DNA from: an uncultured Armatimonadota bacterium
Lineage (GTDB): Bacteria > Armatimonadota > Armatimonadia > Armatimonadales > Armatimonadaceae
Length of the DNA stretch: 64,000 nucleotides
Direction: 5' to 3'
Assembly (NCBI GenBank): GCA_903910385.1
Contig: CAIVZM010000022.1
Span: forward strand, 62,001 to 126,000
Each line of letters opens with the position of its first letter. Within the stretch, counting starts at the first letter, position 1. The notes beneath the pieces are model-generated. The model worked only from the letters and a program-made list of their open reading frames with translations. It was not told the origin of the DNA and searched no databases. Positions 24,779 to 42,300 of this stretch are shown here, piece by piece. Made by a program: the position numbers and the translations under genes.

Positions 24779-25858
24779 ATGATAAATGTAGCGATAATAG
24801 GCGTCAGCGGATATGCCGGAGGGGAGGCGGCACGGATTCTTTCACAACATCCTGAAGTGGAAGTGACTTTCGCTTCGTCCGAATCCAACGCCGGAAAACC
24901 GCTTTCGGCGGCGTATCCGGGTTTGACAGGGACGCGTGCAGGACGTCTTATCTGCCATGGCTCCGATATGGAAAAGGCGGCGGACACGGCGGAAGTGATT
25001 TTTCTGGCGCAGGAGAGCGGCGCCGCCATGAAAGCGGCGGAATCTCTGCTGGCAAAGGGAAAGAAAATCATCGACCTGTCCGCCGATTTCCGCTTGCGCG
25101 ATGCTTCGGTTTTTGAGACTTGGTACAAGATTCCGCACTCCGCGCCACATCTGCTCAATGGAAGCGGGGCTGCCACCGGTGCGGTCTACGGATTGCCGGA
25201 ATGGAATTTTGAGGCATTGGAGTCCGCGCAACTAGTCGCAAACCCCGGCTGTCATGTCACAGCGGCGTTGCTGGCGTTATTGCCGCTTCTGGATCAGTCT
25301 CTCATCGAGACTCGCGGAATTATCATCGACAGTAAGACGGGAGTCTCCGGCGCGGGTAGGACGAAAAGCGAACTGATCTATCGCTTCAGCGAGATGAACG
25401 AGAGCATGCTTCCGTACAATCTGGGCGGGACGCATCGGCATATTCCGGAGATCGAACAGAACCTTTCTGATGTTGCCGGAGAGTCTGTGGTCGTCACTTT
25501 CGCGCCCCATCTTGCGCCGATGACGCGAGGCATTCTTTCGACCTGTTATGCCCGGTTGAAGGAGGATGCAGTGACGGCGCAAACGATTACCGATGCGTTA
25601 CGTGATACCTACAGCGAGGAGGGCGCGCCCTTTGTGATCGTCCGTAATTCCGGTGACTGGCCCTCTACGAAGGATGTTTTCGGTTCGAACTTCTGTCATC
25701 TGTCTGCCACGGTAGATAGTAGGACTGGATCGGTCATTATCGTTTCCGCGATTGATAATCTTGTCAAAGGGGCGGCGGGACAGGCGGTGCAAAATATGAA
25801 TCTGATGTGCGGTCTGCCGGAAACGGCAGGCCTGGAAGGCGGCGGACAATGGCCGTAG
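24779..25858 (+). CDS. argC: N-acetyl-gamma-glutamyl-phosphate reductase
   Basis: The enzyme reduces N-acetylglutamyl 5-phosphate to the semialdehyde with NADPH, third step of arginine synthesis. The 359-residue protein starts with a Rossmann motif (VAIIGVSGYAGGEAARIL) and carries the catalytic cysteine in ANPGCHVTAALLALLPL (Cys158). Conserved blocks IDLSADFRLRD, GLPEWNF and SKTGVSGAGR are present, as are the late histidine motifs (GGTHRHIPEIEQ, FAPHLAPMTRGIL). It opens the argC-argJ-argB series; the argJ start overlaps its last 10 bp. The start follows a weak GGGGGAC. Confidence 0.97.
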   Translation: MINVAIIGVSGYAGGEAARILSQHPEVEVTFASSESNAGKPLSAAYPGLTGTRAGRLICHGSDMEKAADTAEVIFLAQESGAAMKAAESLLAKGKKIIDLSADFRLRDASVFETWYKIPHSAPHLLNGSGAATGAVYGLPEWNFEALESAQLVANPGCHVTAALLALLPLLDQSLIETRGIIIDSKTGVSGAGRTKSELIYRFSEMNESMLPYNLGGTHRHIPEIEQNLSDVAGESVVVTFAPHLAPMTRGILSTCYARLKEDAVTAQTITDALRDTYSEEGAPFVIVRNSGDWPSTKDVFGSNFCHLSATVDSRTGSVIIVSAIDNLVKGAAGQAVQNMNLMCGLPETAGLEGGGQWP

Positions 25859-27102
25859 AGAAGGAACCGCTGAGGCGGTCGCTCATTCCGGGCGGCGTCT
25901 GTGCGGCGAAGGGTTTTCGGGTTGCTGGAGTGCGATGCGGGATTAAGCGTAAGCGAAGGGATATTGCGCTTCTGGTATGTGACGCTCCCGATGGTAAGGA
26001 AGCGACGGCGGCGGCGACTTTCACTCAGAACCGATTGCGCGCCCCCTGTGCTGATCGAGGTGAAACGATTATCCGAAACGGCGACGGGGAAATTCGGGCG
26101 ATTGTCGTAAACGCGGGCAATGCGAACGCCGGAAATGGACCGCAAGGCGTTAAGGATAACGAGGCGATGGCTTTTCTCGCGGCCGCCGAGATCGGGAGCG
26201 AACCTTCGCGAGTTCTCACTGCGTCTACAGGCATTATCGGGAATCCGATGCCGATGGAACGGGTAGCTTCCGGTATCCGTGAAGCGGCGGCTGCCCTGAC
26301 GCACTCGGCGGAAGCAGCATCTGAGGCGGCGGAAGCCATCCTGACCACCGATACCTTCAGCAAGGAATACGCGATAGAAGTGGAAATCGACGGCTTTCCC
26401 GTTCGTATCGGCGGAATGGCGAAGGGCTCCGGGATGATCGCACCTAATATGGCGACCATGCTGGCATTCATCACGACAGATGCCGCCGTCGCTGCGCCTG
26501 TTTTACAATTGGCGCTGAAACGGGCTGTCGATATTTCCTTCAACCGTCTGACCGTGGACGGCGACACCTCAACTAATGATTCCTGTTTTCTTCTGGCTTC
26601 CGGCGCTTCTGGCGGGGCTGATATTCAGGATGATCAATCTCCAGCATTCGAGGATTTCCTTGAGGCGTTGACCGAAGTTTGCGTCCATCTTGCGAAGGAG
26701 ATCGCCCGGGATGGGGAAGGTGCGACCAAACTTGTCACTGTCACCGTCTTCGGCGCGGAGCAGGAGAAAGATGCGGACGCCATCGCCCGAACAATCGCAG
26801 AATCGCCGCTGGTCAAAACGGCTCTTTTCGGTAATGATCCGAACTGGGGGCGAATCCTCGCCGCATCGGGACGTGCCGGGGTTCCTTTCGATCCGCAGAA
26901 AGTGACAGCGACCCTTGCCGGGACGACCATTTTCAGTCAAGGCATTCCCACTGATTTCGACGCCGCCGCGCTTTCCAAAACGATGTCGGCGAAGGAAGTC
27001 ACGATTACTGTTGACTTATCCTCAGGTGACGCCACCGCGACCTTTTATACCTGCGATTTCAGTTACGACTATGTCCGCATCAATGCGGAATACCATACAT
27101 AG
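25849..27102 (+). CDS. argJ: Bifunctional ornithine acetyltransferase / N-acetylglutamate synthase
   Basis: A 417-residue enzyme that moves the acetyl group from N-acetylornithine to glutamate, recycling it in the arginine pathway. The precursor cleaves itself at the Ala-Thr bond in NMATMLAF (Ala202/Thr203); the new N-terminal threonine is the nucleophile. Other blocks are VVNAGNANAGNG, STGIIGNPMPME, MAKGSGMIAPN and NDPNWGRILAASGRAG. The ORF is open 14 codons further upstream, but the ATG at 25849 follows GGAAGGCGG and overlaps argC by 10 bp, which favours coupled translation. The acetyl-CoA-dependent activity cannot be read from the sequence. No separate argA is seen. Confidence 0.96.
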   Translation: MAVEKEPLRRSLIPGGVCAAKGFRVAGVRCGIKRKRRDIALLVCDAPDGKEATAAATFTQNRLRAPCADRGETIIRNGDGEIRAIVVNAGNANAGNGPQGVKDNEAMAFLAAAEIGSEPSRVLTASTGIIGNPMPMERVASGIREAAAALTHSAEAASEAAEAILTTDTFSKEYAIEVEIDGFPVRIGGMAKGSGMIAPNMATMLAFITTDAAVAAPVLQLALKRAVDISFNRLTVDGDTSTNDSCFLLASGASGGADIQDDQSPAFEDFLEALTEVCVHLAKEIARDGEGATKLVTVTVFGAEQEKDADAIARTIAESPLVKTALFGNDPNWGRILAASGRAGVPFDPQKVTATLAGTTIFSQGIPTDFDAAALSKTMSAKEVTITVDLSSGDATATFYTCDFSYDYVRINAEYHT

Positions 27103-27274: not shown

Positions 27275-28168
27275 GTGACAAAATTGATGAATCCTGATTT
27301 GCAGGCGGAAATACTATCACAGGCGTTGCCGTATATTCGGCGGTTCGCCGGGGCGACGCTGGTCATTAAGTATGGCGGTGCGGCGATGCTGGACGACGAT
27401 CTCAAACGCGCCGTGATGCGCGACCTCGCTCTGATGCGTTTTGTCGGGATTAACCCGATTCTGGTGCATGGCGGCGGACCGGAAGTCTCCGAGGCGATGC
27501 GGAAGATGGGCAAGGAACCGGAATTCATCGGCGGCCTTCGTGTCACCGATGCGGAGACAATGGAAATCGTCGAGATGGTGCTCACCGGAAAGACAAACAA
27601 GGGCATTGTCTCCTTGCTCAATGGTGAAGGACTGAATGCTGTCGGTCTCTCGGGCAAGGATGCCAATCTACTGGTAGCAGTCAAGGAAACGGCGCGAGGG
27701 GATATCGGCTTTGTCGGACGTATCACTCAGGTGAATCCGGGGATTGTCCACACGCTGACGGCGGCGGGCTATGTCCCGGTGATTTCGTCGGTCGCTATCG
27801 GGCAGGACGGGGCTTCCTATAATGTGAATGCCGATACGGCGGCGGGCGAACTGGCGGTCGCTCTCGGTGCAAAAAAACTGATCCTGATGACCGATGTGGA
27901 AGGACTCTATCGTGACTTCAATGACAAGTCTTCCCTGATATCCGAACTGACCGCAGCGGAAGCGCGACGTATGGTCAATTCCGGCGCAATTGATGCGGGC
28001 ATGATCCCCAAACTGGAAGCCTGTGTGGACTCCGTTGAGGATGGAGTCGAACGCGCCCATATCATCGATGGTCGCCGTCCCCACTCACTCCTGATAGAAA
28101 TCTTCACGGATTCCGGGATCGGGACAATGATTCATGCCGCACAGGGCTATCGTCCCCGATTGGTGTGA
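27275..28168 (+). CDS. argB: Acetylglutamate kinase
   Basis: The kinase phosphorylates N-acetylglutamate, second step of arginine synthesis. The 297-residue protein has the amino-acid-kinase fold with LVIKYGGAAMLDD (about 29-41), ILVHGGGPEVSEAM, FIGGLRVTDAETMEIVEMV and GAKKLILMTDVEGLY. It keeps the N-terminal helix (AEILSQALPYIRRF) and the HSLLIEIFTDSGIGTMI tail that mark the arginine-inhibited type, so feedback inhibition is likely. The start is GTG at 27275, with GGAGA 7 bases upstream. The 172-bp gap from argJ contains a hairpin (GATGCC...GGCATC around an inner CCGC/GCGG stem). Confidence 0.96.
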   Translation: MTKLMNPDLQAEILSQALPYIRRFAGATLVIKYGGAAMLDDDLKRAVMRDLALMRFVGINPILVHGGGPEVSEAMRKMGKEPEFIGGLRVTDAETMEIVEMVLTGKTNKGIVSLLNGEGLNAVGLSGKDANLLVAVKETARGDIGFVGRITQVNPGIVHTLTAAGYVPVISSVAIGQDGASYNVNADTAAGELAVALGAKKLILMTDVEGLYRDFNDKSSLISELTAAEARRMVNSGAIDAGMIPKLEACVDSVEDGVERAHIIDGRRPHSLLIEIFTDSGIGTMIHAAQGYRPRLV

Positions 28169-35518: not shown

Positions 35519-36757
35519 ATGTTGGCGGAAGCGATAGCGGTAAATACGGACGCGCCGGTAAATAACTCTGAGGCGAAGATATGGGATAATGCCCATGTCA
35601 TGCGTACGTATGCACGGCAACCGGTGGAATTTGTACGTGGCGAGGGAGTGTACCTGTACGATGCCAGTGGAAAGCCATATCTGGATCTGCTTGCGGGTAT
35701 AGCGGTCTGTGCCGTCGGGCATTGTCATCCGTATCTGACCTGTGCGCTTCAGCAACAGTCGGCGACACTGTTGCATGTCTCCAATCTGTATTTGACTGAA
35801 CCGCAGGCGCGATTAGCGCGTCGTCTGGTGGAACTCTCGGACTTTGAACGTGCATTTTTCTGCAACTCCGGCGCAGAAGCGAACGAAGCCGCTATCAAGA
35901 TTGCGCGTAAATACGGACGGGGGATTCGGGAAAGTAAAACCAATATTGTCACTGCGCTAAAGTCCTTTCATGGGCGAACATTGGCAGCAATAACCGCCAC
36001 CGGGCAACCCAAATATAGTGAGAATTTTGCACCGCTGCCCGGAGGATTCCAGTATGTCCCCTTCAATGATGTGGAAGCTCTGAAAGCCGTCGTCAATGAA
36101 GATACCTGCGCCATTCTGCTGGAACCGATTCAGGGCGAAGGCGGCATACATCCCGCCAGCATGGAGTACCTGCGAACGGCGCGGGAACTAGCGGATCACC
36201 ATGGATCGTTGCTGATTTTCGATGAAGTGCAGACGGGCGTCGGACGTACGGGAAAGCTCTGGGCGTACCAGCAGTATGGCGTCATTCCCGATGTCATGAC
36301 ATTGGCTAAGGGGCTGGGTGGCGGCGTTCCCATCGGGGCGTGTCTGGCGCGGGGCGCGGCGGCGGAAACGTTCGTCCCTGGCGATCACGGTTCGACCTTC
36401 GCCGGAAATCCGCTGGCGACAACTGCAGCTCTCGCTGTTCTGGATATTCTGGCGGATGAAAATCTGACGGAAAACGCACGACGGGTCGGCGCTTACCTAA
36501 CCTCGCGTCTGGGCGAACTCCAGCAGAAATTTCCTGCGCTGATCGGGGGAGTGCGTGGCATGGGATTGATGCTAGGAGTCGAAGTCTTTCAGTCGGCGGC
36601 GCGAAAGATCGTCGCGGGGGCACTGGATAACGGACTGATTATCAACGCGACGGGCGATGACACCATTCGTCTGGTTCCGCCGCTTACTCTGGCGGAAGCG
36701 GATGTCGATCGGGCAATCGAACTTCTGGAAAAAACGCTCGCTTCCCTCAGGATGTAA
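35519..36757 (+). CDS. argD: Acetylornithine aminotransferase
   Basis: A 412-residue class III PLP aminotransferase that converts N-acetylglutamate semialdehyde to N-acetylornithine with glutamate. Motifs are AVGHCHPYLTCALQQQ, the FFCNSGAEANEAAIKIARKYGR block (113-134), SFHGRTLAAITATGQ, EPIQGEGGI, the PLP-binding LLIFDEVQTGVGRTGKLWAY (Asp235) and the Schiff-base lysine in TLAKGLGGGVPIGA (Lys264). STFAGNPLATTAAL completes the site. It may also serve in lysine synthesis in some bacteria, but a DapL-type enzyme is encoded at 56566. GGGAAAAG precedes the ATG by a short distance. Confidence 0.96.
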   Translation: MLAEAIAVNTDAPVNNSEAKIWDNAHVMRTYARQPVEFVRGEGVYLYDASGKPYLDLLAGIAVCAVGHCHPYLTCALQQQSATLLHVSNLYLTEPQARLARRLVELSDFERAFFCNSGAEANEAAIKIARKYGRGIRESKTNIVTALKSFHGRTLAAITATGQPKYSENFAPLPGGFQYVPFNDVEALKAVVNEDTCAILLEPIQGEGGIHPASMEYLRTARELADHHGSLLIFDEVQTGVGRTGKLWAYQQYGVIPDVMTLAKGLGGGVPIGACLARGAAAETFVPGDHGSTFAGNPLATTAALAVLDILADENLTENARRVGAYLTSRLGELQQKFPALIGGVRGMGLMLGVEVFQSAARKIVAGALDNGLIINATGDDTIRLVPPLTLAEADVDRAIELLEKTLASLRM

Positions 36758-36814: not shown

Positions 36815-37176
36815 AAGTTATCCGAAGGATAGAAGGCGAAAAAACAAAAAGCGACCGCATCGCCCGAGGGGATGCCATCGCGGATATAATCGTCTGCAAA
36901 TTCGATTACAGGTATATTATATCGCAAATTAGGCTTTGATCGCAAACAATATTGCGCAGTCATGATCTGACTTCGACCTGATTAGGATGAGGTGCGAGGT
37001 CGATTTTAATGGCTTGGGTATTCGATATTTGGGTTAGTCGGTTTCAATTGATACTGTAGCGTCTTGAAAATGTCTCGGATTCAGAATCTCCTGAGACTTG
37101 GCTTCGCTGATTGCTACCACCTCCTCATCAATACCGATTATAATAAGGGACGAACTCATCAGGAAAAGGCAAGGAT

Positions 37177-38610
37177 ATGGCGATTCAGTTTACTCGCAAC
37201 GGGCGAAAGGCGATGCTATGGGCGCAGGTGGAGGCAATGCGCCGGGGGGATCTGTATGTGGAACCAGAACATCTGTTGCTGGGGCTATTGCATGGCGAAG
37301 ATACCGGGGCGTTACGTCTGCTGGATAAAATGAATCTTGCAGGGTATCAGGTGCGCGATTGCGCACAGGCGACCCTGGGACCAGAAAGCGCCGGAACACG
37401 TGTGGAAACATCGCAACTCTCGCCCTCCGCCAAGAAAGCTGTAGAGCAAGCGCGACGAGAAACAGAAGCGACCGGAGATGACTATGTTGGGACAGAACAT
37501 CTGATGCTTGCGATCCTTCGCGGTATCAGCGATGGGATCGAACCGCGCCCTGGTCTCCGGGAGAAATTGAATGCGCTTGGGCTTGTCTACGAACGCGCCG
37601 CCATCGCCATACAGGGCGTGACTCCTGAATTGCCATCTCTTAGTGACGAACCATCTCCGGTGATGACTGCCGCTCCCGTGCTCCGCCCTCGCCCTAGTTT
37701 TCTTAAGGGACGTGATTTTTTATCTGTCAGTGACCTTGCCAACGATGAAATTCGTGCGCTTTTTGAATTGACCCGAGAGTTCAAAATGGGACGCACCCCG
37801 GACGCTGGTCGTGGAAAAACGCTCGCACTATTATTCGAAAAGCCTTCCCTGCGCACTCGTGTCACCATGACCGTCGCAATGAATCGACTGGGTGGTAACG
37901 TCGTTTATCTGGGGCCGGAAGAGGTGGGCATGGGTAAACGGGAAGCGGTCGCCGATATGGCGCGATGCCTTTCCCGATGGGTGGATGCAGTAGCGATTCG
38001 TACCTTCGCCGATTCCATTATCCGTGAGTTCGCGGATGCCTCTTCCGCACCGGTCATCAACTCTCTGACTGACCGCGAGCACCCCTGTCAGGCTCTCGCC
38101 GATTATTACACCATTCTGGAAAGCCGGTCCGAGACAGCGGGAATGAAACTCGTCTTCGTCGGCGATGGTAATAATGTCGCCCATTCGCTGATGTTACTGG
38201 CGCCCCGAATGGGGACGCATTTCACGCTGGCATGCCCGAAGGGGTACGAACCGGATCCAAATATTCTGTCTGAGGCGCGGGAGCTTGCTAAACTCTACGG
38301 GACGAATTTTGATATTTCTCATGATCCTCTGGTTGCCGCCGACGATGCGGATATCCTTTATACCGATACCTGGACATCCATGGGGCAGGAAGCCGAGGCC
38401 GCGAAACGTCGCGCCGATTTCGCGGGCTTTCAGGTCAACGACGAATTGTTGCGGGAAGCGAAAGAGGATGTGCTTGTATTGCACTGCCTGCCCGCCCATC
38501 GGGGAGAGGAAATTACCGATAGCGTCGCGGATAGTCCTTATTCCGGCATCTTTGATCAGGCGGAAAACCGTCTCCATATTCAGCAGGCGCTTCTGGCGGC
38601 GATTTTATAG
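37177..38610 (+). CDS. argF: Clp-N domain / ornithine carbamoyltransferase fusion
   Basis: A 477-residue fusion. Residues 1-145 contain two Clp-N repeats as in ClpA/ClpC: FTRNGRKAMLWAQVEA with EPEHLLLGLLHGE, and LSPSAKKAVEQARRETEA with GTEHLMLAILRG. A linker (146-178) leads to a full OTC: carbamoyl-phosphate loop FEKPSLRTR (220-228; canonical second residue Thr is Leu), HPCQALADY (302-310), ornithine loop DTWTSMGQE (397-405) and HCLPAHRGEEI (436-446). OTC joins carbamoyl phosphate and ornithine to give citrulline. AGGAAAAGGCAAGG precedes the ATG. No ribosome-binding site precedes the internal Met163, and there is no stop between the parts, so a single fused product is expected. Clp-N domains bind clients or adaptors, suggesting OTC is tethered or turnover-controlled (inference). 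Confidence 0.93.
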   Translation: MAIQFTRNGRKAMLWAQVEAMRRGDLYVEPEHLLLGLLHGEDTGALRLLDKMNLAGYQVRDCAQATLGPESAGTRVETSQLSPSAKKAVEQARRETEATGDDYVGTEHLMLAILRGISDGIEPRPGLREKLNALGLVYERAAIAIQGVTPELPSLSDEPSPVMTAAPVLRPRPSFLKGRDFLSVSDLANDEIRALFELTREFKMGRTPDAGRGKTLALLFEKPSLRTRVTMTVAMNRLGGNVVYLGPEEVGMGKREAVADMARCLSRWVDAVAIRTFADSIIREFADASSAPVINSLTDREHPCQALADYYTILESRSETAGMKLVFVGDGNNVAHSLMLLAPRMGTHFTLACPKGYEPDPNILSEARELAKLYGTNFDISHDPLVAADDADILYTDTWTSMGQEAEAAKRRADFAGFQVNDELLREAKEDVLVLHCLPAHRGEEITDSVADSPYSGIFDQAENRLHIQQALLAAIL

Positions 38611-38946: not shown

Positions 38947-41900
38947 ATGGCCGAAACTGGCAACGGAACTGCGCCGACTGTTACGACAAATGGGACGACC
39001 GCCCCGGCGACCAATGGCCCCGCTTCACCGTCCGCAGATGATTTGAAACTGCGCGGCGTTTCCCGCTCTTTGTTGATTGGAGTGGGAGGGACAGGGCATA
39101 AAATGATGCTGGATGTTCGACAACGCCTGCTACAGAAGTATGGCACGTTGGACAAACTGCCGATTGTCTCCTTTTTGCTCCTGGATACCGATCAGGCGAT
39201 TTTCGGAAAGAATCCAAACTACAGCGATGTCGCAAATCTGGATAACGCCGACAAGATTCACATGAGTGTCTACGGCGTCGAGAAACTGCGCCAGAATTTA
39301 CGCGAGTACTCCAATCTCCGTGACTGGTTAGACCCACGAACGCTTTCAGGAGACATTCATCAGGGAGCCGGCGCAGTACGCGCCCGGGGTCGTCTGGCGT
39401 TCTTCTGGAATTACGATACCATCGCCAAGCGATTGCAGGAAGAACTGGCGGAAATTACCAAGGACGCCAGCAAAGCGCAGGCGATCAAGAATGGGTTACA
39501 GGTCTCCGAGGGTATCACGGTCTATATCCTTGGCTCGCTGTTAGGAGGAACCGGTTCAGGCATCTTCCTCGACCTGACCTATGCGGTCAAAGAACTGTTC
39601 AAATCGCAGCGTATGCTGGATGTGGTCGGAATCTTTTCCATTCCACCCAATACACAGGCGGTCGCGGTCGATAACCGGCCGAACGCCTACGCTTCTCTTC
39701 TGGAACTCAACCATTATACGGATGTTTCCACCACCTTTACGGCGCAATACAACAAAGACCAACCCGGTATCGAAAATGCGGACCCGCCTTTCCGTTACAC
39801 GTATCTGGTGGATACATCTTCGCCTGCAGCCAATCTCGGAAGTATCGACCGACTGGTTGAGATGGTCGGAAACTCAGTGTTCCTTGACCTGACCTCCGAG
39901 TTTCAGCGTCAGAAGAAATCCAACCGGGACAACTTCGATCAGTTCCTGACAAACCCGGACGATCTCGGTTGCCCGCAGAATTACTTAAGTATGGGTCTTG
40001 CCGCGATCCATTTTCCCAAAGATAAGGTCATGCAGGCATGCTCGTCACGTCTGGCGCGACAAATACTGTCTCGCTGGACTGACCCACTTCAGAAGACGGC
40101 GAATGTCGGCGCATTCACCGAAGCGGAGATCAATCGACTCGGTCTCAACCCTGAGGAAATCAAGCGACAGGCAACGATTTCGTCGGCGGATTCGGGCGAA
40201 TTGCTCCGTGACCTCGCGATGACGTACTGGAATGGGGTCAATAAGCAATACGAGACTGCCTATCCCGGTCATAATCGCGTAGTCGAGTTTCTCAACGCCA
40301 AACAGGCGGATCATGCGACCCGGTTCGTCGATAATGACCCCAACCCGGATCTTTTGGGCAAGATGCGCCAGAATCTGGGCGAATACCAGTTCCAGATTCG
40401 GGAAAACCTTCGTGCTCTAATTCCGGCGAAGGAGCGAGCGTTGCGGTTGTTCATTGCGGAATGTGTGAATGAACCGAACCGTCGACACGGCATTGCACGC
40501 GCCTTTCTGGATCAGGCAAGCGAACGCTTCCGCGCCTATGCGGATGCATTGGGGAAAGAACGCGACGCCGCCAAGGAGACACTCGCGCCGCTTGCGGAAC
40601 AACGCGATAGCCAACTGGGTGATATCGCCCGGTATGCGGCCGACCCCATGTTATCGTTGATCCCTACTGCCAAAGGGAGGGAAATCAACGATAAAAAGGA
40701 TGCCTACCTGCGGTTCGCCCGCCAGTGGGACGCCGCCTTGTTGGACAGCCGGGCAAATGACGCCGCGATTTACTTTTACAACGCAATGCTGGGCGTCCTG
40801 GAATCTCTGAAAGAGGAAATGGATGCTTATATCGAGCGCATGAAATCGCTTGAAGCCTATTTCCGCAAGGAAGAGCAACTGGCGATCGAAAACCCGGTCG
40901 ATGTCAATGGTCTTGTTATCTTCGATCGTGGGAACCGGACGGAGAACGAGGATGGCTCGGCAACGTATGTAGGCGGAGATATCGATCAGCGGTACACCGC
41001 TTATGTCGGTAACGGAAACGATCCTGCTAACCCAGCGGTAGCCACTACAGCCGCCGATGCTCTCCGCGAGCTTGGTACGGAAAGCAACATCTATGGTCTC
41101 CGTGATCAGGACATGGCGAGGATTCGCACCGTTCTGATGAACCGCTCCCGCGCGATCTTCCGGGATGTCGAAAACGAATCCGTGCTGGACAAATTTTTCG
41201 AAAAGTTCGGGGTAGGGACGGACAGGGCGGTAGAAGAATTGCGCCGGGTCTTTGGATTATCGCAACCGTTCATTCATTTGCAGGAAAATGCGCCCAACTA
41301 CAAGCATCACCAGAATAAGGAGCAGACCATTGTCGGGACCATGTATGGCTCCGAGGGACGAACGGAATCACAACAGCGATTCCTCGCCATGCTCAAGGAC
41401 ACGGTGCAGGGAATTCGGGATGGGCAAATCACGAACTCCAATGAACCGCATCAGACCCTGTTTTTAAGAGAGCGGGCGGCATTCCCGTTGCGCCTTCTGG
41501 AAGGGATGGAATCCTATCGTTTCGCTTATGCGCAGGCGAAAGCGCAGGGAGCGTCGGTCAACCCGATCCATACCCGCCGTGACGTCACGGAATGGGTACG
41601 TATCGATCCGCCGTCGTATGAGACCCAGAAGGAAGCATGGGAAACGTTCTGCGTCGGTTGGGCATCCAGCGTCATTACCGAGGAACGGGACACGCGTTAC
41701 ACCGCGACGGGCGCGAAAGAGACTATCAAGTTTATCGCTGCGTATCGAGACCGTTTCGGGATGCCCAAGACCGATCCGCTGGGGACGTTCATCGCTATCA
41801 CCGGAGACATGGCGAAACTGATTCGCGAAGCTGAGACGGAATCAGAGCAATCGAATCGACCTCCAAAGGAAGCGCGAGAAATTATTCTGATCCTTTGCGA

Positions 41901-42300
41901 CAATCCGACATTGCGAGAGCAACTTCAGCAGGGCATTGAGGCGAAGTTACACGAACTGGGAATCGCCGGACTCGGGGACAAACTTGTCCTGCATGTCCAG
42001 TCTCAGGAGCGTATTCTACCGTCCATGATCTATCGTCCTTATCAGAAGGCGATCTCCGATTATCTGGAGCGTATCAACTATGCCGGTTTTGGTAATTCTC
42101 CAGCGTTGACGGTCGCTTCCCCCGCTCCAATCCCTGCACCCACCGTGACGCCCGCCTTACCAGCTCCTGTAACAAATGGGAATGGTAACGGTAAGTCGGT
42201 ACGTGAACGTCTGGCTGATTTGAAAGGGCTGTTGGAGGATGGTCTGATCGATCAGTCTGACTTCGACTCTCGAAAAGCTGCGATTCTTGCAGAGGTCTGA
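38947..42300 (+). CDS. Large tubulin-like GTPase with SHOCT-like tail
   Basis: A 1,117-residue cytoplasmic protein. Residues 1-35 are a Thr/Ala/Pro-rich linker. The N-terminal half has a tubulin-superfamily GTPase layout: SRSLLIGVGGTGHKMMLDVR (39-58) as the first nucleotide loop and YILGSLLGGTGSGIFLDLTY (193-212) holding the tubulin signature GGTGSG. This matches the bacterial tubulin-like families proposed to act in membrane remodelling. The long middle region is helical with charged coiled-coil-like stretches (about 520-660). After a Pro/Ala linker the last 33 residues (RERLADLKGLLEDGLIDQSD) resemble a SHOCT domain. It is transcribed alone, between argF and a prenyltransferase gene, and ended by a terminator. 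No vWA partner lies beside it. Function unproven. Confidence 0.85.
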   Translation: MAETGNGTAPTVTTNGTTAPATNGPASPSADDLKLRGVSRSLLIGVGGTGHKMMLDVRQRLLQKYGTLDKLPIVSFLLLDTDQAIFGKNPNYSDVANLDNADKIHMSVYGVEKLRQNLREYSNLRDWLDPRTLSGDIHQGAGAVRARGRLAFFWNYDTIAKRLQEELAEITKDASKAQAIKNGLQVSEGITVYILGSLLGGTGSGIFLDLTYAVKELFKSQRMLDVVGIFSIPPNTQAVAVDNRPNAYASLLELNHYTDVSTTFTAQYNKDQPGIENADPPFRYTYLVDTSSPAANLGSIDRLVEMVGNSVFLDLTSEFQRQKKSNRDNFDQFLTNPDDLGCPQNYLSMGLAAIHFPKDKVMQACSSRLARQILSRWTDPLQKTANVGAFTEAEINRLGLNPEEIKRQATISSADSGELLRDLAMTYWNGVNKQYETAYPGHNRVVEFLNAKQADHATRFVDNDPNPDLLGKMRQNLGEYQFQIRENLRALIPAKERALRLFIAECVNEPNRRHGIARAFLDQASERFRAYADALGKERDAAKETLAPLAEQRDSQLGDIARYAADPMLSLIPTAKGREINDKKDAYLRFARQWDAALLDSRANDAAIYFYNAMLGVLESLKEEMDAYIERMKSLEAYFRKEEQLAIENPVDVNGLVIFDRGNRTENEDGSATYVGGDIDQRYTAYVGNGNDPANPAVATTAADALRELGTESNIYGLRDQDMARIRTVLMNRSRAIFRDVENESVLDKFFEKFGVGTDRAVEELRRVFGLSQPFIHLQENAPNYKHHQNKEQTIVGTMYGSEGRTESQQRFLAMLKDTVQGIRDGQITNSNEPHQTLFLRERAAFPLRLLEGMESYRFAYAQAKAQGASVNPIHTRRDVTEWVRIDPPSYETQKEAWETFCVGWASSVITEERDTRYTATGAKETIKFIAAYRDRFGMPKTDPLGTFIAITGDMAKLIREAETESEQSNRPPKEAREIILILCDNPTLREQLQQGIEAKLHELGIAGLGDKLVLHVQSQERILPSMIYRPYQKAISDYLERINYAGFGNSPALTVASPAPIPAPTVTPALPAPVTNGNGNGKSVRERLADLKGLLEDGLIDQSDFDSRKAAILAEV

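Follow-up and report, generated by a model that had tools for sequence, protein, structure and literature searches.

Why should an enzyme of arginine synthesis carry, in the same polypeptide, the N-terminal domain of an unfoldase? The question is raised by an argF gene located in a window of 64,000 nucleotides from an uncultured Armatimonadota bacterium, in which the coding sequence of an ornithine carbamoyltransferase (OTC) is preceded by that of a double Clp_N module. The first-pass annotation of this DNA knew of no described example and, indeed, no published description of a Clp_N-OTC fusion was found in the openly licensed literature.

The gene and its product

The open reading frame is real: it runs through 477 codons in a single frame from an ATG start, without stop or frameshift (Table 1), and the in-frame union of a double Clp_N with an intact OTC, as originally annotated, is confirmed by the occurrence of the same architecture in 37 genomes, which belong to 12 families of one phylum (Armatimonadota). 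This conservation rules out an assembly or frameshift artefact. Nor is the fusion a product of chance, since relatives present the same architecture end to end, four of them at 63-68% identity and those of other families at 41-48%. Met163 was also considered as the true start and is an unlikely one, given that inspection of the sequence revealed no Shine-Dalgarno in front of it and that, in close pairs of relatives, purifying selection acts on the upstream Clp_N part.

Table 1. Coordinates, within the window, of the fusion gene, its parts and the arginine synthesis genes
Feature	Position	Strand	Remarks and basis
Clp_N-OTC fusion gene (argF)	37177..38610	+	477 aa; sole OTC found in genome
Shine-Dalgarno-like AGGAAAAGG	37161..37169	+	5' of fusion-gene ATG; from sequence
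Clp_N repeat 1	37177..37386	+	residues ~1-70; Pfam Clp_N and ClpC N-domain alignment
Clp_N repeat 2	37402..37614	+	residues ~76-146; ClpC N-domain alignment and AlphaFold2 model
Linker	37615..37701	+	residues 147-175; predicted disordered, weakly conserved; pLDDT and dN/dS
OTC carbamoyl-phosphate binding domain	37711..38121	+	Pfam OTCace_N; S-L-R-T-R 37846-37860, HPCQ 38080
OTC ornithine-binding domain	38140..38601	+	Pfam OTCace; DxxxSMG near 38365-38385, HCLP 38482
argD, acetylornithine transaminase	35519..36757	+	directly upstream of fusion; Pfam and NCBIfam
argC, N-acetyl-gamma-glutamyl-phosphate reductase	24779..25858	+	TIGR01850 above cut-off
argJ, bifunctional ornithine acetyltransferase / N-acetylglutamate synthase	25807..27102	+	TIGR00120 and PRK05388 above cut-off
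argB, acetylglutamate kinase	27275..28168	+	TIGR00761 above cut-off

The description of residues 1-145 as two Clp-N repeats holds. In a profile search, Pfam Clp_N matches the first repeat at residues 16-55 (E 4e-14; 52.8 bits, the gathering score of PF02861 being 20.7) and the second repeat gives no Pfam match of its own, while in alignment residues 4-124 cover both repeats of the Bacillus subtilis ClpC N-domain (E 2e-13). AlphaFold2 places eight helices, in two sets of four, in residues 7-145; this part of the model is of low confidence because just one related sequence was usable, pLDDT falls below 50 in residues 130-164, and the OTC part is reliable from about residue 176.

The enzyme is equally complete. 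Pfam OTCace_N (residues 179-315, E 1e-42) and OTCace (322-475, E 3e-59) are both matched, the NCBIfam models TIGR00658 and PRK00779 both exceed their cut-offs (362.9 bits against 280.85 for the former, the OTC equivalog model), and all the active-site loops that had been read from the sequence are present: SLRTR at 224, HPCQ at 302, SMG at 401 with D397, and HCLP at 436. Residues 176-477 match the ArgF OTC of Pyrococcus furiosus (1a1s) end to end at 49% identity, the TM-score of the modelled OTC part against solved OTCs is 0.93, and the best 50 Foldseek matches are carbamoyltransferases only. The leucine in the S-T-R-T loop, singled out at first as a change, is there as stated (S-L-R-T-R, residues 224-228) but is not special: the loop is ordinary, and SLRTR or SLRTK occurs in 106 of the phylum's 111 OTCs. 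Outside the phylum, 32 of 80 OTCs have SLRTR, these 80 having been gathered with two search patterns of which one favours that loop. By its domain content, moreover, the fusion protein is not an unfoldase, for Pfam finds no AAA domain anywhere in its 477 residues and thus none of the AAA+ ring that marks ClpC, ClpA and ClpB.

Compared with ArgF, then, the protein has 175 additional N-terminal residues, including the double Clp_N, and it shares with ArgF the usual arg neighbours, argD and others (Table 1); of the 37 fusion loci, 25 have argD upstream. The fusion gene is the cell's OTC gene, since an OTCace_N family search of the source genome found, besides it, just one transcarbamylase gene, that of aspartate carbamoyltransferase. 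The gene just downstream of the fusion (38947-42300) encodes a tubulin-like protein (Tubulin_2, PF13809) of 1117 aa with a SHOCT domain at its C-terminus.

Distribution and history of the fused module

The 111 OTC loci of the phylum, which are top matches and not a random sample of it, comprise 37 Clp_N-OTC fusions, 3 loci with a separate Clp_N, 10 ArgD-OTC fusions, 56 plain OTCs and 5 that are cut by a contig end or unclear. As the 56 plain OTCs show, OTC as such can do without the module. Outside the phylum, a fused Clp_N was found in none of the 80 named OTC loci among the matches listed, and no fused OTC appeared among the matches listed at E <=1e-100 either in Chloroflexota (85 genomes, of 301 searched) or in Bacillota, the phylum of Paenibacillus (55 genomes, of 199). 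Within Armatimonadota, three loci of family f3 have a separate gene for Clp_N immediately upstream of argF; in both f3 and f7 such genes lie between argD and argF, and in four f7 fusion genomes one of them is found upstream in addition to the fusion. Four to six Clp_N repeats are present at L019, L054 and L072. The notion that Clp_N is normally confined to ClpA/ClpC cannot be maintained in view of these separate genes and of the mycobacterial ClpC2 (PMC10030653).

Several other arrangements deserve mention. At L029 (991-2904), L018 (784-2886) and L049 (1109-3325), a separate Clp_N gene and the next OTC or Clp_N-OTC gene are in frame with a single stop between them, which would correspond either to tight coupling or to ongoing fusion and fission. 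In one genome (G016, L017/L036) the Clp_N of the fusion is split over two frames, by a frameshift or a sequencing error, its sister genome G013 having it intact. Two loci of the same order, L014 and L060 (genomes G017 and G014), are odd three-part fusions in which a stretch like the start of T2SSE, the type II/IV secretion ATPase family, stands between Clp_N and OTC (E 2e-13 and 9e-5, respectively). Furthermore, argD and argF are themselves fused in one frame (704-866 aa) at L043 and L114, in genus g5 of the source family, as well as at L096-L101, L108 and L109 in family f14, that of Fimbriimonas; placing these ArgD-ArgF fusions on the OTC tree takes two separate changes, and both enzymes belong to one pathway. 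They resemble the Clp_N fusion in that the OTC is joined at its N-terminus to the product of an adjacent arg gene, and differ from it in that the partner is acetylornithine transaminase and no Clp_N is involved.

When loci are labelled by fusion on the OTC tree, the best tree has 14 changes of label, and counting well-supported branches alone still leaves at least 8, a pattern compatible with one old fusion followed by many losses or with several gains. In three close species pairs, dN/dS is 0.06, 0.06 and 0.02 for Clp_N and 0.06, 0.05 and 0.04 for OTC; the linker (0.06-0.24) exceeds the domains in most close pairs, and in a more distant pair (L008/L009) the OTC evolves more slowly than Clp_N. 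On these ratios, the Clp_N part is kept by purifying selection in the close pairs.

Although the Clp_N tree has little resolution, it groups the fused domain of G017 beside that genome's own ClpC. The two genes share 93% DNA identity over 439 bases from the ATG (L014:2922-3360 and L127:218-656), in a mosaic of near-identity in which almost all differences up to codon 132 are synonymous and the synonymous ones are clustered in tracts (P about 0.001), as expected from gene conversion or from a recent recopying of clpC. ClpC's N-domain has therefore been accepted at the fusion position. Moreover, the fused Clp_N of L072 is ~81% identical in DNA to its own clpC, and the separate Clp_N gene of L044 is ~81% identical to the clpC of relatives. 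In at least one lineage, comparison of the genes shows that the fused domain and the N-domain of ClpC can stand in for each other.

Pocket residues and partner genes

The N-domain of ClpC has two phosphoarginine pockets, in which E32 and E106 are crucial and one of which includes T7, and it is held to the rings and M-domains by R9, K85 and R122, R9 and R122 contacting the M-domains (PMC12583610). Free phosphoarginine activates ClpC and arginine does not (PMC12583610); the N-domain of Mycobacterium smegmatis ClpC1 binds phosphoarginine with a Kd of 1.4 uM (PMC9604228). In alignment, T6, E31, S82 and E107 of the fusion protein correspond to T7, E32, T81 and E106 of ClpC, so that the double Clp_N and the pocket T/S and E residues are common to it and to the N-domains of B. 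subtilis ClpC and M. tuberculosis ClpC1; the AAA+ rings and the M-domain are missing from it, and the contact positions R9 and R122 are changed to N8 and E129. The same holds across the phylum: T/S or E at T7, E32, T81 and E106 is kept in 35, 33, 33 and 33 of 35 fused domains (the OTC-proximal ones); a basic residue at R9 and at R122, by contrast, is found in 21/35 and 17/35 of them, and in 23/24 for each position among the ClpB/ClpC proteins of the phylum (Fisher P 0.002 and 0.0001, in tests that ignore relatedness). As for R122, its mutation had little effect in Staphylococcus aureus ClpC (PMC12583610). The pocket glutamates may be partly structural, because they are also kept in the ClpB-like protein of the source genome.

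Regarding possible partners, the source genome (G000) encodes ClpC/ClpB-type proteins and an McsB-like kinase, a 425-aa ORF with a PF00217 match of 150 bits, whose closest NCBIfam model, protein arginine kinase, scores 236 bits, below its cut-off of 385. Across the phylum, McsB-like kinases (PF00217) are encoded by 169 of 291 genomes, absences being less certain than presences because PF00217 also missed control genomes, B. subtilis included. They are present in 31/37 fusion genomes and in 25/56 plain-OTC genomes (simple Fisher P 0.0002), a correlation that loses its significance with independent pairs on the tree. No McsB match was obtained in family f3, yet it has separate Clp_N genes beside argF, and no PF00217 match in another phylum group, of 43 genomes, into which L154 and L205 fall although they are labelled Armatimonadota. 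A link to MecA-like adaptors, for which the first-pass annotation proposed a test, finds no support, MecA having been found in 0/61 relatives, the B. subtilis and Lactococcus lactis controls being positive. ClpS, for its part, is patchy and does not track the fusion; it is missing from the scanned fusion genomes of f5, f18 and G023, and was thus discarded as a common ligand.

Possible roles of the fused module

Taken together, the comparisons lead us to propose tentatively, as a reading with a fair though less than even chance of being right, that argF captured a ClpC-type double Clp_N and kept it, on a flexible linker of the anabolic OTC, as a module for reading a ligand or partner. The fused domain would bind the same class of ligand as the ClpC N-domain, most likely phosphoarginine, either free or on proteins marked by McsB, given the absence of MecA and the failure of ClpS to follow the fusion. 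Binding might then modulate the enzyme's activity, or bring the OTC trimer to McsB/ClpC or to proteins tagged with phosphoarginine, and arginine synthesis would be coupled to the arginine-phosphate quality-control pathway. The bolder version, in which phosphoarginine would act through the captured domain as an allosteric effector of OTC and arginine-phosphate quality control would directly set the rate of arginine synthesis, seems to us distinctly unlikely.

It had been suggested at the outset that the OTC is delivered to or held by a Clp machine, or else that the repeats were recruited as a regulatory cap. The recruitment of a regulatory or docking module remains the best reading; the status of client does not follow, since the fused Clp_N resembles the receptor part of ClpC with both pockets kept, so that the OTC should bind ClpC's ligands without thereby becoming its client. 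A proteolytic control, in which Clp_N docks the OTC at ClpC, McsA/McsB or a chaperone, and the enzyme is marked, degraded or protected according to stress or arginine status, can nevertheless be considered: in ClpC, Clp_N is the binding site of adaptors and of the McsA/McsB complex (PMC12583610), ClpC's own N-domain can naturally replace the fused one, and ClpC/ClpB-type proteins and an McsB-like kinase are encoded in the genome. We regard it as unlikely, for MecA is missing, Clp_N in ClpC is the receiving end and not a degradation tag, and the residues that attach the domain to the ClpC M-domain drift. Just as unlikely, in our opinion, is a ligand-free cap, in which the all-helical Clp_N would aid the folding, solubility or assembly of OTC; the long flexible linker, the tolerance of extra repeats and the many capless OTCs of the phylum would fit it, but neither the selective retention of the pocket residues nor that of separate Clp_N genes adjoining argF would be expected.

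Less probable explanations dispense with any such role or assign the pockets to other ligands. A Clp_N gene standing between argD and argF, as it does in f3 and f7, could have been fused through the loss of a stop as a harmless, near-neutral accident of gene order, and the repeated changes of the fusion label would agree with this; it is improbable when the domain stays intact across 12 families and its dN/dS in close pairs (0.02-0.06) reveals a constraint as strong as that on OTC. That the pockets are a direct feedback sensor of free arginine is also quite improbable, in spite of the arginine-synthesis genes that surround the fusion and of the arginine derivative bound by the ClpC pocket, since unphosphorylated arginine at 1 mM did not activate ClpC (PMC12583610). 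ClpC2, which has Clp_N but lacks the unfoldase part, protects against cyclomarin A and is able to bind both cyclomarin and its own promoter; it is thus likewise a Clp_N module outside an unfoldase, although, unlike the present one, not fused to a metabolic enzyme (PMC10030653). A similar role as a decoy or sink, for compounds directed against the N-domain of ClpC, would, however, give no reason for the tie to OTC or to arg genes, and we consider it very improbable here.

A regulatory domain on a transcarbamylase chain would have a parallel in the proteins of PRK13376 and NF009916, which we take to be fusions of the catalytic and regulatory subunits of aspartate carbamoyltransferase with a PyrI-type regulatory domain; in that case it is the aspartate enzyme, and Clp_N is absent. 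A cultured organism may be available for the study of the OTC fusion, as G014, which has a divergent form of it, is probably Capsulimonas corticalis.

Returning to the proposed reading module, the substrate-receptor domain of a protease complex has become joined, repeatedly or durably, to one biosynthetic enzyme, where selection keeps it and where, in one genome, it has apparently even been recopied from clpC. This suggests that the ClpC N-domain can work as a portable reader of signals outside AAA+ machines, and suggests as well a link between arginine synthesis and protein-quality control. If the ligand is phosphoarginine, a metabolic enzyme would be controlled by protein arginine phosphorylation.
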